Positions 34,744 to 55,653 of a stretch of DNA of 64,000 nt are shown in pieces. Position 1 is the first letter of the stretch, and every line of letters starts with the position of its first letter. Origin of the DNA: Tomitella fengzijianii (lineage in GTDB: Bacteria > Actinomycetota > Actinomycetes > Mycobacteriales > Mycobacteriaceae); assembly GCF_007559025.1 (NCBI RefSeq), contig NZ_CP041765.1, positions 1,112,679 to 1,176,678 on the forward strand. Reading direction: 5' to 3'. Below the pieces are notes generated by a model that saw only the letters and a program-made list of their open reading frames with translations, made no database searches and was not told the origin of the DNA. The position numbers and the translations under genes were made by a program.

Positions 34744-35049
34744 CTACGCGCCGATGGTGATCGTCGTCTCGTGCACGCCCGGCCCGGACGGTGCGATGGT
34801 CGTGTCGCCGTTGCCGGCGGACGACAGCGCACGGACGGTCCAGCTGCCCGGTCCGGCGAAGAACCGGAAGTCGCCGGTGGCGGACGCGACGACCTCGGCG
34901 GTGAACTCGCCCGACGAGTCGAGGAGACGGACGAACGCGCCGCCCACCGGCTGCCCGTCCTTTCCCGCGACCCGACCCGTGATCACGGTCTCGGTCTCCG
35001 CGTCGACCCCGGCGGGAAGGGTCTGACTCTGCACTGGTGCTCCGCACAT
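34744..35049 (-). CDS. sseC: DUF1416 protein (SseC)
   Basis: A 101-residue protein of the actinobacterial DUF1416 family, always next to a thiosulfate sulfurtransferase. It starts MCGAPVQSQTLPAGVD and has a carboxypeptidase-regulatory-like beta-sandwich (VITGRVAGKDGQPVGGAFVRLLDSSGEF). Its biochemical role is unknown. It follows the sulfurtransferase gene by 31 bp with AGGGAG before the ATG, the same pair as Rv0814c/Rv0815c. Confidence 0.9.
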   Translation of the reverse strand: MCGAPVQSQTLPAGVDAETETVITGRVAGKDGQPVGGAFVRLLDSSGEFTAEVVASATGDFRFFAGPGSWTVRALSSAGNGDTTIAPSGPGVHETTITIGA

Positions 35050-35080: not shown

Positions 35081-35914
35081 TCAGGCGCCCTGTTCGACGG
35101 GGGCGCCGACGAGCGAGCCGTACTCGACCCAGCTGCCGTCGTAGTTCCTGACGTTCTTCTTGCCGAGGATCTCCTGGAGGACGAACCAGGTGTGGCTGGA
35201 CCGCTCGCCGATCCGGCAGTAGGCGATGGTCTCCTTGGAGTCGTCGAAGCCCTTCGCGCCGTAAAGCTCGGTGAGCTCCTCGTCGGACTTGAAGGTGCCG
35301 TCCTCGTTGGCGGCCTGGCTCCAGGGGACGTTGAGCGCGCCGGGGACGTGGCCGCGGCCCTGCGCCTGCTCCTGCGGGAGATGCGCGGGCGCGGCCAGCT
35401 CGCCGGAGAACTCGCCGGGCGAGCGGACGTCGACCAGGTTCTGGTTCCCGATGGCGGCGATGACGTCGTCGCGGTAGGCGCGGATCGACGTGTCGGGCTG
35501 CTGCGCCTTGTACTCGGTGGCGGGGCGGTGCACCGCATCGGTGGACAGCGGACGCGCGTCGAGCTCCCACTTCTTGCGGCCGCCGTCGACGAGCTTGACG
35601 TCCTTGTGTCCGTAGTACTTCAGGTACCAGTACGCGTACGCGGCGAACCAGTTGTTGTTGCCGCCGTACAGGACGACGGTGTCGTCGGCGGCGATGCCGC
35701 GCTCGGAGAGCAACTTGCTGAATCCCTCGCGGTCGAGGAAATCGCGGCGGACGGGGTCCTGCAGGTCCGCGCGCCAGTCCAGGCGCACGGCGCCCTCGAT
35801 GTGTCCGGTCTCGTACGCGCTGGTGTCTTCGTCGACCTCGACGAAGACGATGCCGTCCGCGCCGATGTTCTTCTGTGCCCAGTCGGTGCTGACCAGGACG
35901 TCGGAGCGTGCCAT
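35081..35914 (-). CDS. cysA: Thiosulfate sulfurtransferase (two rhodanese domains)
   Basis: A 277-residue cytosolic enzyme that transfers sulfane sulfur from thiosulfate to thiol acceptors. The N-terminal rhodanese domain (to ~125) is the inactive type (SKLLSERGIAADDTVVLYGG). The C-terminal domain (~150-275) has the catalytic loop CRIGERSSHTW with the persulfide Cys. The ATG at 35914 follows AAGGAACCTC. The homologue is cysA2/cysA3 of M. tuberculosis. Upstream are a DUF4395 gene and a polycysteine leader ORF, so expression is probably controlled by cysteine supply. Confidence 0.94.
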   Translation of the reverse strand: MARSDVLVSTDWAQKNIGADGIVFVEVDEDTSAYETGHIEGAVRLDWRADLQDPVRRDFLDREGFSKLLSERGIAADDTVVLYGGNNNWFAAYAYWYLKYYGHKDVKLVDGGRKKWELDARPLSTDAVHRPATEYKAQQPDTSIRAYRDDVIAAIGNQNLVDVRSPGEFSGELAAPAHLPQEQAQGRGHVPGALNVPWSQAANEDGTFKSDEELTELYGAKGFDDSKETIAYCRIGERSSHTWFVLQEILGKKNVRNYDGSWVEYGSLVGAPVEQGA

Positions 35915-36158
35915 GAGGTTCCTTCCTCGCTGTATCACCGCAGGGGCGGTGACGCTGGGTGTGTGACTCTCGATCAGTCGATGCGAAAATCGTTCCCCGG
36001 CAACGTGATGCCGGTGGATTCTGCGGGGCGATCGCGCGGGGGCGACCGGGTCTCCCGGCGGGTGCGGCCGTCATCGCGGCACAGCCCGCCGGCGGGGCAC
36101 CGGATCCGGCGCCGGCGGCGCCGCACGAAGGCGGCGGGTCCGGCGGCGCGGAATCCGG

Positions 36159-36626
36159 TCATGTCATTCGCAGGTAGGCGATCATCGGGTACATCCGGCA
36201 GCCCAGGCAGAAGCCGAAGGCGGCGTTCAGCAGCGCGGCGAACAGTGCCAGCGCAGTGGCGAGCGCGCCGAGCAGCGGTACTCCCGCCGCGTATCCGGCC
36301 ACGCCGACTGCCGCGAAGACTAGGCCCACAGTCTGCGCGAAACGCAGGGGCGCCACCGGTTCCCGCTCCGCCGGCGGCGTGATGCGGGGCGCGACGACGT
36401 GGGAGAAGAACCAGCCGTACGGGGTGCGGCGCGGGCCGAAGGCGGCGCCGACGGCGAACACCACGGCCTGGACGGCCAGCAGCCACCAGGCGCCGGTGAG
36501 CAGGACCGACGCCAGGACCACGGTGGTGACCGCAGCGGCGAATCGGGGGCCGCGGACGTCCACTACCGCGCTCTGCTGCCGGTGCGCCGGACGCTCAGCG
36601 TCGCGGTGGGTGGATTCGAGGGACAT
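36159..36626 (-). CDS. DUF4395 integral membrane protein
   Basis: A 155-residue membrane protein with four hydrophobic segments: 34-50 (AVTTVVLASVLLTGAWW), 52-66, 94-114 and 116-140. A CxxC-type motif, GFCLGCRMYP, lies at the end of the last one. DUF4395 proteins occur next to thioredoxins and sulfurtransferases and are suspected to handle sulfur or disulfide transfer at the membrane, which is not demonstrated here. The ATG at 36626 has AAGGAG 9 nt upstream. It is the first main gene behind the polycysteine leader. Confidence 0.85.
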   Translation of the reverse strand: MSLESTHRDAERPAHRQQSAVVDVRGPRFAAAVTTVVLASVLLTGAWWLLAVQAVVFAVGAAFGPRRTPYGWFFSHVVAPRITPPAEREPVAPLRFAQTVGLVFAAVGVAGYAAGVPLLGALATALALFAALLNAAFGFCLGCRMYPMIAYLRMT

Positions 36627-36840
36627 CGGGTGTGGGCTCCTTGGCTGCTGAGGATGCCGCGCAACGCGAAGAATGCTGCGGCTGCCGGGGATCCGGCGGG
36701 GGACTGCATGGGCGGCGTTCTCAGAGGTACCGGCGATCCGGATCGCGCCTCCGAGGGCGGCGATGGTCGGCATGCCCGAGAATCGATGCCGGGTCCGCGG
36801 TGGAATCACCGTTGGAAGCGACCTTTGCCTGGCCCGTCTA
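36627..36840 (-). promoter_or_regulatory. Attenuator leader between the polycysteine ORF and DUF4395
   Basis: A 214-nt untranslated stretch after the leader ORF. It contains self-complementary elements (CGGTG-ATTC-CACCG and the 14-bp palindrome GCGATCCGGATCGC) and ends with AAGGAG before the DUF4395 start. It is the likely site where stalled versus released ribosomes change access to the downstream gene. Confidence 0.45.
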
Positions 36841-36909
36841 TCAGCAACAGGAACAGCAACAGCCCCCGAGGCGGCACAGGTCTACTGCGCGGCGTCGGGT
36901 GAGCATCAT
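36841..36909 (-). CDS. Polycysteine leader peptide (cysteine-responsive uORF)
   Basis: A 22-codon ORF starting ATG ATG at 36909. The peptide reads MMLTRRRAVDLCR, then LGGCCCSCC, then TGA. Six of its 22 residues are cysteine, five within the last six codons. Short ORFs ending in cysteine runs in front of sulfur-assimilation operons have been shown in mycobacteria to act as translational attenuators: ribosomes stall on Cys codons when charged tRNA-Cys is low and downstream genes are then expressed. The ORF lies 214 bp upstream of DUF4395-cysA-sseC on the same strand. A TAGTCT -10 is at 36937-36942. No strong Shine-Dalgarno precedes it. Confidence 0.78.
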   Translation of the reverse strand: MMLTRRRAVDLCRLGGCCCSCC

Positions 36910-36936
36910 TCGCTCGTGGCTTGTCTGCACACGGTG

Positions 36937-36942
36937 AGACTA
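36937..36942 (-). promoter_or_regulatory. -10 element (TAGTCT) of the sulfur operon
   Basis: TAGTCT on the minus strand, which would place the transcript start near 36930, about 20 nt before the polycysteine leader ORF. Confidence 0.4.
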
Positions 36943-37013
36943 CCGTGCGCCCTGCGGTCTGCGCCACTCCGGGTGCGAACCGCGCGCATCAGCGGAGACT
37001 AGCGCCGTTGCCG

Positions 37014-37081
37014 CGGTCGCTCAGTGCAGCCGGTCGCTCAGTGCAGCCGGACGCTCAGTGCAGCCGGTCGCTCAGCGCAGC
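37014..37081 (-). repeat. 17-bp x 4 tandem repeat at the thioredoxin 3' end
   Basis: CGGTCGCTCAGTGCAGC at 37014 and 37031, with single-base variants at 37048 and 37065-37081. The last unit contains the final codons and TGA of the thioredoxin gene; the other three are non-coding copies of that gene end. Confidence 0.9.
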
Positions 37082-37596
37082 GGGCGCAGCGCTTCAGCGA
37101 GCGCGGACGCGTCCGGCACGCCGCTGATCCGGCCGTGGCCGACGCCCTCGGCGTCGTAGATGAAGGTCGTGGGCAGCGACATGACCCGCAGTCGGCGCGC
37201 CAACACCGCGTGCTCGTCCAGGTCGAGCTCGAGGTCCTGCACCGGGGCGCCTTCGGGAGCCTCCGCCGCCAGGCGCGCAGACGTGCCGGCCACCACCCGG
37301 CGCACCGCCGCGCAGGGGCCGCACCAGGTGGCGGAGAAGTGCACGACAGCGGGGCCGTCGCCGCGCAGCCCCGCGGCGCGCAGCAGCGCCTGCACCCCGG
37401 TCTGATCTCCGGACTCCTCTTCGGCCGTGTCGACGTCGCGATCGGCCTGGTCGTCCGGCCGGCCCGCGGGTGCCGGGCGTCGGGCCACCGTCTGTGCGCC
37501 GGCCGTGGGCTTCACCGTGCCCGAGCGCGCGCGCAGGACGAGCCCGACGGCCACGGCGAGCACGACCACCAGCACGAGGATCACCGTTCCCGTCAT
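37072..37596 (-). CDS. Membrane-anchored thioredoxin-family protein
   Basis: A 174-residue protein with an N-terminal membrane anchor (residues 3-22, GTVILVLVVVLAVAVGLVLR), a polar linker to ~75, then a thioredoxin fold with the active site SATWCGPCAAV and the cis-Pro loop MSLPTTFIYD. It probably faces outward as a thiol oxidoreductase. It corresponds to Rv0816c (thiX), although that protein's topology may differ. The ATG overlaps the lmeA stop (ATGA), so the two are translated together. The stop lies within a 17-bp tandem repeat. Confidence 0.88.
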   Translation of the reverse strand: MTGTVILVLVVVLAVAVGLVLRARSGTVKPTAGAQTVARRPAPAGRPDDQADRDVDTAEEESGDQTGVQALLRAAGLRGDGPAVVHFSATWCGPCAAVRRVVAGTSARLAAEAPEGAPVQDLELDLDEHAVLARRLRVMSLPTTFIYDAEGVGHGRISGVPDASALAEALRPLR

Positions 37597-38420
37597 CGAT
37601 CCCCCTCCGGGACGATCGTGTCCGGTGCCGATCGGAGGTCGGTCAGTCGGACCCGGACGTCGTCGGCGCCGCCCTGGACGACGATGTCGGTCCCGTCGGA
37701 GTGCACGCGGGTGGCGTCGAGGCCGTAGGGGAGGTGACGTGCGTCGATGGTGACGGCGAACTGCGGGCCGACGACCTCGATCGACGGGACCGGCTCGGGT
37801 TCGATGCCCGGCGCGCCGGCGCGGGGCCACACCGCGCTGGGGACGATCGACAGCATGCCCTTGTCCAGGACCAGATAGGCGACGACGGAGACCGGACTGC
37901 GCACGGGGCCGGATTCGTCCGCGGACGTCTGCACCGTCCCGGTCAGCAGCACGCGGTGGGCGCTGAGCGGCGGGCCGTAGGTGAGAGCGCCCGTCCGGGC
38001 GGCGTCGTCCGCGTCGGGCGGCTCGGACACCTCCAGGTCCGGGACGCCCAGCAGCCGGCCGAGCGTCGTCTGGCCGATGACCCAGCTCGCAGTGGCGTGC
38101 TCCGCGCGGACCGTCGTCCGGGGATCGGAGATTATGCCGCCATCCGGGAAATCCACTCCAGTGAAACGGGTTTCGACCGTGGTGCGGTAAGAGATCGGGG
38201 TGGGTACGTCCTGTGCGCTGACGGTGATGGCAGAGGCGTGCCCGCGGGGCACCGACCACAGGAACGGGAAGGCGGAGATCGAGACCTCCGGGTCGCTTCC
38301 GAGCGCTGCGCTGTCGCGTACGGCGCGCGATACGCGGTACTCGGTGGCGATCGCAGCGCCGAAGTCGACGACGACGAGCAGAGCCGCCAGCGCTGCCAGT
38401 CCCAGGACGAGTTTCCGCAC
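37593..38420 (-). CDS. lmeA: LmeA-like DUF2993 protein
   Basis: A 275-residue secreted or membrane-anchored protein. The N-terminal hydrophobic segment (MRKLVLGLAALAALLVVVDFGAAIA) is a signal peptide or anchor. The rest is the DUF2993 lipid-binding fold (SDPEVSISAFPFLWSVPRGHASAITVSAQDVP). In mycobacteria the homologue (Rv0817c) binds phosphoinositides and promotes mannan elongation of lipomannan at the cell envelope. The GTG at 38420 is used; a GACAAT hexamer 6 nt upstream may be its -10. It is divergent from glnR and coupled to the thioredoxin gene. Confidence 0.87.
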   Translation of the reverse strand: MRKLVLGLAALAALLVVVDFGAAIATEYRVSRAVRDSAALGSDPEVSISAFPFLWSVPRGHASAITVSAQDVPTPISYRTTVETRFTGVDFPDGGIISDPRTTVRAEHATASWVIGQTTLGRLLGVPDLEVSEPPDADDAARTGALTYGPPLSAHRVLLTGTVQTSADESGPVRSPVSVVAYLVLDKGMLSIVPSAVWPRAGAPGIEPEPVPSIEVVGPQFAVTIDARHLPYGLDATRVHSDGTDIVVQGGADDVRVRLTDLRSAPDTIVPEGDR

Positions 38421-53856: not shown

Positions 53857-55653
53857 ATGACGATCGGAACCGGGAATGCCGGCAACGCGATGAGCGGACC
53901 GGCGGAAGAGGACACGGCAGTGGACGCGAGCGGCGACGGCGAGTATGTGGCGCCGACGAGTGAGCCGGAGGACGTCGAGCGGCTGTTGCCGGAGGAGGCC
54001 GCAGCGCAGGGGCTGACTTTCGCAGACGTCCTGATGCGGCGCCGGGGCGACGACCATCCCGGCATGTTGTTCGAGGATTCGGCGTGGACGTGGGGGCAGG
54101 TGGTCCAGGAGTCGATCGACCGTGCCGTGGTGCTGCGCGGGCTGCGCAGCGAGGGCAAGCCCTTCCACGTGGGCGTGCTTCTCGAGAACGTGCCCGAGTA
54201 CATCTTCCTCATCGCCGCGGCAGGGTTGGCGGGAGCCACTCTGGTGGGCATCAACCCCACCCGTCGCGGCGCGGAGCTCGCGGCCGACATCCGCGGGGTG
54301 GACTGCGACCTGATTCTCACCGACTCGGTGCAGGGCGCGGTGCTCGACGGCCTGGACACCGGAGTCGCGGCCGACAGGATCATCGACGTGGACGGTGCGC
54401 GGTGGCGCGGACTGCTCGCCGAGGCCGCGGGTTCCGAGGTGCCGGACGTGCCCGAGGCGCACGACCCGTCTCGCATCCTGCTGCTCACGTTCACCTCGGG
54501 CTCGACGGGCGCTCCGAAGGCGGTCATCTGCAGCAGCGGCCGGCTGGCGGCGCTCGCGGCGATCAACCACCTGTCGTTCGTGCGTGACGACGTCACCTAC
54601 AACTCGATGCCGCTGTTCCACGGCAACGCGATCTTCTCCTGCTGGGCCCCGTCGGTGTACACGGGCGCGACGTTCAGCATGCGCCGCAAGTTCTCGGCGT
54701 CCGGCTTCCTGCCGGACGTGCGCAGGTTCGGGGCGACGTTCTTCAACTACGTCGGCCGGTCGCTGGCGTACATCCTCGCGGTGGAGGAGACGCCGGAGGA
54801 GGCGGACACCCGGCTGCGCACGGTGTTCGGCACCGAGGCGGCGCCGCACGACCGCGACGAGTTCGAACGGCGGTTCGGCGTCCGTCCCATCGAAAGCTAC
54901 GGCTCGTCTGAGGGCGGGTGCATCGTGAGCCAGACGCCCGATGCGCCGGCGCAATCGTTGGGTCGACCGCCCGTCTTCATGGATGTGCGGGTGCTCGATG
55001 ACGACGGGAACGAGTGCCCCCCGGCCGGGTTCGACGCGGACGGGAAGATCACCAACGCCGCCGCCGCGATCGGCGAACTGACCACGCTCAACGGTGCGGC
55101 GATGTTCGAGGGCTACTACAAGAACCCGGAGGCCACCGCGGACCGCATCGACGGCGAGGCCTACCGCACCGGCGACCTGGCCTACCGGGACGCCGACGGC
55201 TTCTTCTACTTCGCGGGCCGCAAGGGCGACTGGATGCGGGTGGACAGCGAGAACTTCTCGGCCGCGCCGGTGGAACGGATCCTGGCCCGGTTCCCGGGTG
55301 TGTCGCTGGTGGCCGTGTACCCGGTGCCGGACCCGCGCACGGGCGACCAGGTGATGGCCACATTCCAGATGCTCGGCGGCACCGCGTTCGACCCGGCGGA
55401 GTTCGGCCGGTTCCTGGCCGCTCAGCCGGATCTGGGCACCAAGTGGGCGCCGCGGTTCGTGCGCATCACCGACGGCATCCCGGTGACCGCCACCCGCAAG
55501 ATCGACAAGCCCACGTTGCGGCGTCAGTCGTGGGTGGACGCGCACACGGTGTACGTCGGCGACACCAAGTCGCTCGAGTACACCGCGCTCGACGGCCCTG
55601 TCCGCGAGGAACTACTCCTGGAGTACGCCAAGTACGATCGCTCGCCCGCATAG
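53857..55653 (+). CDS. FadD-type fatty-acyl-CoA / AMP-forming ligase
   Basis: A ~598-residue ANL-superfamily enzyme that activates carboxylic acids through acyl-AMP. The AMP-binding P-loop is LLTFTSGSTGAPKAVI, the adenine motif region is ESYGSSEGGCIV, the motor hinge is YRTGDLAYRDADGFFYFAGRKGDWMRVDSENFSAAPVERIL, and the catalytic Lys is in VTATRKIDKPTL. It resembles mycobacterial FadD proteins that use fatty or sterol-derived acids; the chain is unknown. The start is uncertain (GTG 53809, ATG 53848, 53857 or 53890); 53857 has GGGA about 9 nt upstream. Confidence 0.9.
   Translation: MTIGTGNAGNAMSGPAEEDTAVDASGDGEYVAPTSEPEDVERLLPEEAAAQGLTFADVLMRRRGDDHPGMLFEDSAWTWGQVVQESIDRAVVLRGLRSEGKPFHVGVLLENVPEYIFLIAAAGLAGATLVGINPTRRGAELAADIRGVDCDLILTDSVQGAVLDGLDTGVAADRIIDVDGARWRGLLAEAAGSEVPDVPEAHDPSRILLLTFTSGSTGAPKAVICSSGRLAALAAINHLSFVRDDVTYNSMPLFHGNAIFSCWAPSVYTGATFSMRRKFSASGFLPDVRRFGATFFNYVGRSLAYILAVEETPEEADTRLRTVFGTEAAPHDRDEFERRFGVRPIESYGSSEGGCIVSQTPDAPAQSLGRPPVFMDVRVLDDDGNECPPAGFDADGKITNAAAAIGELTTLNGAAMFEGYYKNPEATADRIDGEAYRTGDLAYRDADGFFYFAGRKGDWMRVDSENFSAAPVERILARFPGVSLVAVYPVPDPRTGDQVMATFQMLGGTAFDPAEFGRFLAAQPDLGTKWAPRFVRITDGIPVTATRKIDKPTLRRQSWVDAHTVYVGDTKSLEYTALDGPVREELLLEYAKYDRSPA

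Follow-up and report, generated by a model that had tools for sequence, protein, structure and literature searches.

The window, the whole 64,000-nt stretch of Tomitella fengzijianii DNA that was analysed, carries on its minus strand a short upstream ORF (uORF) that is the first ORF ahead of a sulfur gene set (DUF4395, rhodanese and DUF1416), and the gene order is the same in relatives. The features of the locus are as follows.

37072..37596, minus strand: thioredoxin-like gene (PF00085) with ATG at 37596, the conserved neighbour upstream of the uORF
36937..36942, minus strand: probable -10 element TAGTCT, picked by eye and with conserved TANNNT spacing
36841..36930, minus strand: uORF, probably leaderless with a GTG start, 29 codons and a stop, MQTSHERMMLTRRRAVDLCRLGGCCCSCC
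36844..36861, minus strand: Cys tract, codons 24-29 (Cys Cys Cys Ser Cys Cys)
36841..36854, minus strand: predicted anti-Shine-Dalgarno (anti-SD) segment, made of the Cys-tract end and the stop codon (MFE pairing; matched-versus-permuted excess in 23 genera)
36636..36651, minus strand: UCAGCAGC-CA-AGGAGC with the Shine-Dalgarno (SD) sequence AGGAG (36641-36637) of DUF4395 (sequence and MFE)
36159..36626, minus strand: DUF4395 gene (PF14340, E 8e-46), first in the operon
35081..35914, minus strand: cysA-type rhodanese/sulfurtransferase (PF00581, two stretches matched)
34744..35049, minus strand: sseC (DUF1416, PF07210)

The first-pass annotation had described a Cys-run ORF on the minus strand between the thioredoxin and DUF4395 genes, with DUF4395-cysA-sseC downstream. 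Pfam matches agree with these neighbours, and the frame, its six Cys residues, the 214-nt spacer from its stop to the DUF4395 ATG (36626) and the TAGTCT element were all recovered when the sequence was re-read. The frame ends DLCRLGGCCCSCC-stop at 36841. Its C-terminal end is GGCCCSCC, and CCCSCC corresponds to the C-terminal cluster of Cys codons seen in mycobacterial polycysteine attenuators. A 17-bp unit, CGGTCGCTCAGTGCAGC, is present in four head-to-tail copies at 37014-37081, covering the last part of the thioredoxin-like gene and the stretch immediately behind it.

Among the ORFs of 12-60 aa in the window, the uORF alone has at least four Cys in its final 10 residues. In 60 first-order Markov resamples, ORFs with at least four Cys averaged 0.08 (maximum 1), and none had five or more. 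The bare motif TGYTGYTGY is not rare in the genome (541 sites), although it lies below its reversed control (901 sites). Because the motif alone is common, the case rests on context and conservation.

Conservation and gene order in Mycobacteriales

Among 61 genomes searched, 49 gave a DUF4395 match, and one locus was examined per genome (30 + 19). Thirty-six of the 49 loci are of the close type, and the uORF core is present in 33 of these (28 of the first 30 and five of the next six). L257, one of these five, fits a looser uORF motif only, and two close-type loci (L030 and L259) have no uORF. L007, from the same genus as the query and from a genome that is 81% complete, keeps the GTG start and ends in ACCRSCR, while its RRRAVDLCR core is replaced; either the locus can be maintained without a strict need for the core, or the copy is decaying. 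In L256 the uORF is present though the stretch has no cysA match. No uORF was found before any of the 13 divergent DUF4395 genes, whose 1.5-kb flanks contain no cysA, sseC or thioredoxin match, indicating that the uORF tracks the sulfur operon and not DUF4395 itself. A wider draw from the same family found DUF4395 in 181 of 201 genomes; 19 of the 30 loci taken from this set were new, and 18 of the 19 have the uORF. In L208 (same family), DUF4395 directly follows the thioredoxin-like gene, leaving no room for a uORF, and the uORF is absent.

A DNA pattern scan of named genomes gave at least 119 stretches, a collection from which frequencies are not derivable. Among the matches listed, the layout thioredoxin-uORF-DUF4395-cysA-sseC occurs, for example, in L073, L071, L076 and L143 (Mycolicibacterium, Nocardia, Rhodococcus and Hoyosella), and it is also found in Tomitella biformata. 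The suggestion that the operon layout is new must therefore be rejected, since named loci carry the same gene order and NCBIfam already models the leader. Among the loci listed, at least 163 uORFs have their first gene less than 700 nt away (158 DUF4395 and five CysA).

As the first-pass annotation had anticipated for an alignment of related genera, an LTRRRxVDLCR-type core recurs before DUF4395-cysA-sseC, with synonymous codon variation at Val and Asp. Among 77 distinct sequences, RRxVD keeps its Val and Asp without exception, while their codons vary (Val: GTC 27, GTT 25, GTA 13, GTG 12; Asp: GAT 44, GAC 33), and the Cys columns mix TGT and TGC; related loci in these conservation tests, and in the covariation tests below, are not independent. 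The short ORF is genuine and subject to selection. The retention of the Cys run in close relatives, also expected by the first-pass annotation, is borne out in part: the run persists in some form in the five loci of the same genus (in L007 as ACCRSCR) but is reduced in the genus with the nearest DUF4395 (L006, GSALCRMH; L190, GSAPCCMR). Of the core-bearing loci, 19 of the 23 that belong to the family of Tomitella have a CCC run, and none of the 10 belonging to other families does.

Start codon and promoter element

The uORF had been annotated as 22 codons from ATG 36909. Its frame and end stand, but this ATG is internal, and GTG 36930, located 6 nt after TAGTCT at a spacing conserved across loci, opens the same frame and gives 29 aa. 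A start codon occupies this fixed place in 154 of the 163 listed uORF loci (152 GTG and two ATG), and 153 of the 154 have TANNNT 6-8 nt before it, 149 of them at 6 or 7; the loci were found by pattern, are related and include a few duplicates, so that these counts are not independent, and one extra codon of L002-L004 was placed by hand. The background for a GTG at a TANNNT spacing of 6-7 is 158 of 20,471. The other nine loci, which have no start codon in that position (L009, L019, L020, L021, L024, L025, L026, L028 and L031), belong by kinship to other families of the order, L021 excepted. Given the conserved start place and TANNNT spacing, a leaderless GTG 36930 is more likely to be the start than ATG 36909. 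A consensus sigma-70 scan of 36500-37100 returned no promoter-like site, TAGTCT included; this element was accepted because of inspection by eye and its conserved spacing, not because of a consensus match.

Predicted pairing of the uORF end with the DUF4395 Shine-Dalgarno sequence

In the MFE fold of 36930-36597, positions 36854-36849 pair with 36636-36641, and 36848-36841 pair with 36644-36651. In leader numbering, nt 77-82 pair with AGGAGC and nt 83-90 with UCAGCAGC, so that the SD of DUF4395 is predicted to be hidden. The overall stability of the leader is not unusual (z -0.71). Over 118 distinct uORF-end/SD pairs, a uORF end pairs better with its own SD (-15.5 kcal/mol) than with permuted partners (-14.2 kcal/mol), and none of 20,000 permutations was as good; 15 of the 163 uORF loci, which have no AGGAG before the first gene, were dropped from the pairing tests. 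With one locus per genus (n = 23), the excess is also seen when the window stops at the uORF end or 4, 8 or 12 nt beyond it (z between -4.2 and -4.4, with at most one of 5,000 permutations as good); at the remaining ten offsets, z lies between -1.9 (at +20) and +1.8. The pairing region had been spotted by eye before testing, after which 14 window offsets were scanned with 5,000 permutations each. The 23 loci were drawn from L002-L031 by leaving out L003, L004, L005, L007 and L024 as genus repeats, L023 for the absence of AGGAG and L030 for the absence of a uORF.

A ribosome-sized mask on the Cys tract of the Tomitella locus raised the predicted SD openness from 0.04 to 0.53, whereas masks placed upstream or in the spacer left it at 0.04. 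Across 25 loci, the Cys-tract mask raised the mean openness from 0.19 to 0.31 (Wilcoxon p 0.001), compared with 0.17 for the upstream control and 0.23 for the spacer control, the latter also above the free state (p 0.0004). The gain exceeded 0.1 in 12 of the 25 loci, and openness fell in four (L006, L018, L027 and L028); fold predictions are weak for single loci. Canestrari 2020 is said to describe a fold of the mRNA that conceals the downstream SD until a stalled ribosome disrupts it. Such a structure is predicted here by MFE folding, masking and permutation, except that in the sister locus L003 masking of the Cys tract brought no gain (0.59 to 0.59). No terminator-like site was found in 36500-37100. 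Together with the SD pairing, covariation and masking results, this favours translational attenuation.

Attenuation model and related leaders

Two NCBIfam leader models match the uORF. It exceeds the cut-off of NF042934 (cis_reg_atten, "putative leader peptide"; 33.2 bits, or 32.1 in the genome search, against 27), a broad domain model that implies no Cys run. With NF042933 (Ms5788A family Cys-rich leader peptide, equivalog), it scores 36.6 bits, below the cut-off of 45; thus, the Tomitella uORF is not filed under this family, though its position is the same. The Tomitella biformata copy passes both models (45.9 for NF042933 and 37.6 for NF042934), and, of ten other uORFs at the same position, four (L073, L087, L005 and L010) pass NF042933 and six fail. 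Like the Ms5788A-type leader, the uORF is a short Cys-tailed ORF before cysA with the core LT(R/K)RRxVDLCR and the gene order of named Mycolicibacterium, and it is leaderless in Tomitella by prediction. It differs in its GGCCCSCC end, compared with the longer runs (AGCCCCCCSC etc.) of many Mycolicibacterium copies, and in its 214-nt spacer. No Pfam model was found for the three peptides tried, and an Rfam search of 36000-37600 (E up to 10) gave a single match, below the gathering score and on the opposite strand.

Excerpts of Shell 2015 (PMC4633059) describe a ribosome-occupied, Cys-clustered ORF before cysA2/Msmeg_5788, for which attenuation was proposed. Cysteine-responsive attenuation by such mycobacterial ORFs is reported, with credit to Canestrari 2020, in excerpts of PMC13236596, PMC9094748 and PMC9031893, the first of which names translation attenuation. 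A cysteine-sensing uORF before cysA is thus already described in mycobacteria, and the Tomitella copy joins this known type; a narrow full-text literature search found no published account of such a uORF in Tomitella or Rhodococcus. In Corynebacterium, of the same bacterial order, an amino-acid operon, ilvBNC, likewise has a uORF attenuator or leader in front of it (PMC10272879 and PMC11857589), but the operon is a different one, and these papers treat the C. glutamicum leader as a hairpin attenuator acting on transcription.

Very probably, the uORF attenuates translation in response to cysteine and corresponds to the mycobacterial uORF that precedes cysA2. The reading as an attenuator, already put forward by the first-pass annotation, is supported by the recurrence of the uORF before DUF4395-cysA-sseC in other Mycobacteriales and by the matches to the two leader models, and the predicted anatomy fits cysteine-responsive attenuation. 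We infer that a leaderless mRNA begins at or next to GTG 36930 and that ribosomes would start immediately on the 29-codon uORF. When Cys-tRNA is plentiful, the ribosomes would clear the Cys tract and leave, and the tract end (36854-36841) could then pair with the SD-containing segment at 36651-36636, so that the DUF4395 SD would be hidden. Under Cys-tRNA shortage, a ribosome stalled on the Cys codons would cover the anti-SD segment and keep the SD free, so that DUF4395 would be translated. The same would apply to cysA-sseC if they lie on the same transcript, presumably by co-transcription across the 244-nt DUF4395-cysA gap.

Leader-peptide attenuation of amino-acid operons is classically transcriptional. 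A stalled ribosome might accordingly block termination in the 214-nt spacer, either intrinsic or Rho-dependent; the spacer is long in this genus and gives room for hairpins, and effects on transcription or translation are mentioned in excerpts of Shell 2015 (PMC4633059). With no terminator-like site in 36500-37100 and a uORF end that covaries with the SD, we consider this mechanism improbable. That covariation also speaks against the peptide itself, rather than the position of the ribosome, acting in trans, for instance as a small Cys peptide of the metal- or redox-binding kind. Such a role would agree with the strong sequence conservation and the synonymous change at the Val and Asp codons, but the number of Cys varies widely, and in the loci examined the uORF remains immediately in front of the sulfur operon and is absent before unlinked DUF4395 genes, which makes a peptide function highly improbable. 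A chance ORF without function, as might be suspected from its very short length, the genomic abundance of TGYTGYTGY and the ordinary stability of the leader, is ruled out for practical purposes by cross-genus conservation, coding-type codon change and the absence of ORFs with five or more Cys from the 60 resamples.

The Cys run could be a late elaboration, in the family of Tomitella, of an older order-wide device in which the conserved LT(R/K)RRxVDLCR nascent peptide, accompanied by few Cys codons and a stop-overlapping anti-SD, would already sense sulfur supply by peptide-dependent stalling. We regard this idea as rather doubtful; it stems from the confinement of the CCC run to the family (19/23 versus 0/10) and from the core peptide common to both groups, and is countered by L007, in which the core is lost but the Cys-rich end and an anti-SD remain. 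Probable cysteine-sensing uORFs before cysA extend to many Mycobacteriales genera outside mycobacteria, and the present data add evidence, from covariation, for masking of the downstream SD by the end of the uORF itself. A role for the strongly conserved LTRRRxVDLCR peptide is not demanded by a pure codon-stalling model and is now directly testable.

Three matches in the genome exceed the cut-off of NF042934: the uORF described here and two others, which precede an amino-acid permease and a TauE/SafE gene. Weaker matches are located ahead of OsmC, a nitrite/sulfite reductase and a second TauE/SafE gene. Four of the candidates are given here in genome coordinates.

3692320-3692376, minus strand: leader candidate L063 (NF042934 genome search)
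55152-55208, minus strand: leader candidate L064 (NF042934 genome search)
2786542-2786598, plus strand: leader candidate L066 (NF042934, below cut-off)
3076239-3076289, plus strand: leader candidate L067 (NF042934, below cut-off)

Together, these four precede the amino-acid permease, the two TauE/SafE genes and the nitrite/sulfite reductase, and some of them recur in other genomes of the genus. The genome thus seems to place a group of sulfur-linked loci under related leaders, in line with what the mycobacterial papers describe. At the OsmC locus (L065:1370-1581, genome about 1255507-1255718), 9 nt separate the end of a SAM riboswitch aptamer (RF00162, 50.1 bits) from a leader uORF, MRGNATAVFVFLHSRRCIDLCRVSTEGCRMPRGRA, that precedes the OsmC gene, and this arrangement may combine SAM and cysteine sensing. 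The order SAM aptamer-uORF-OsmC also occurs in L217 and L220, giving three of five genomes of the genus, and among 31 aptamer loci examined a uORF-like frame follows the SAM aptamer in two further genera (L250 and L252).
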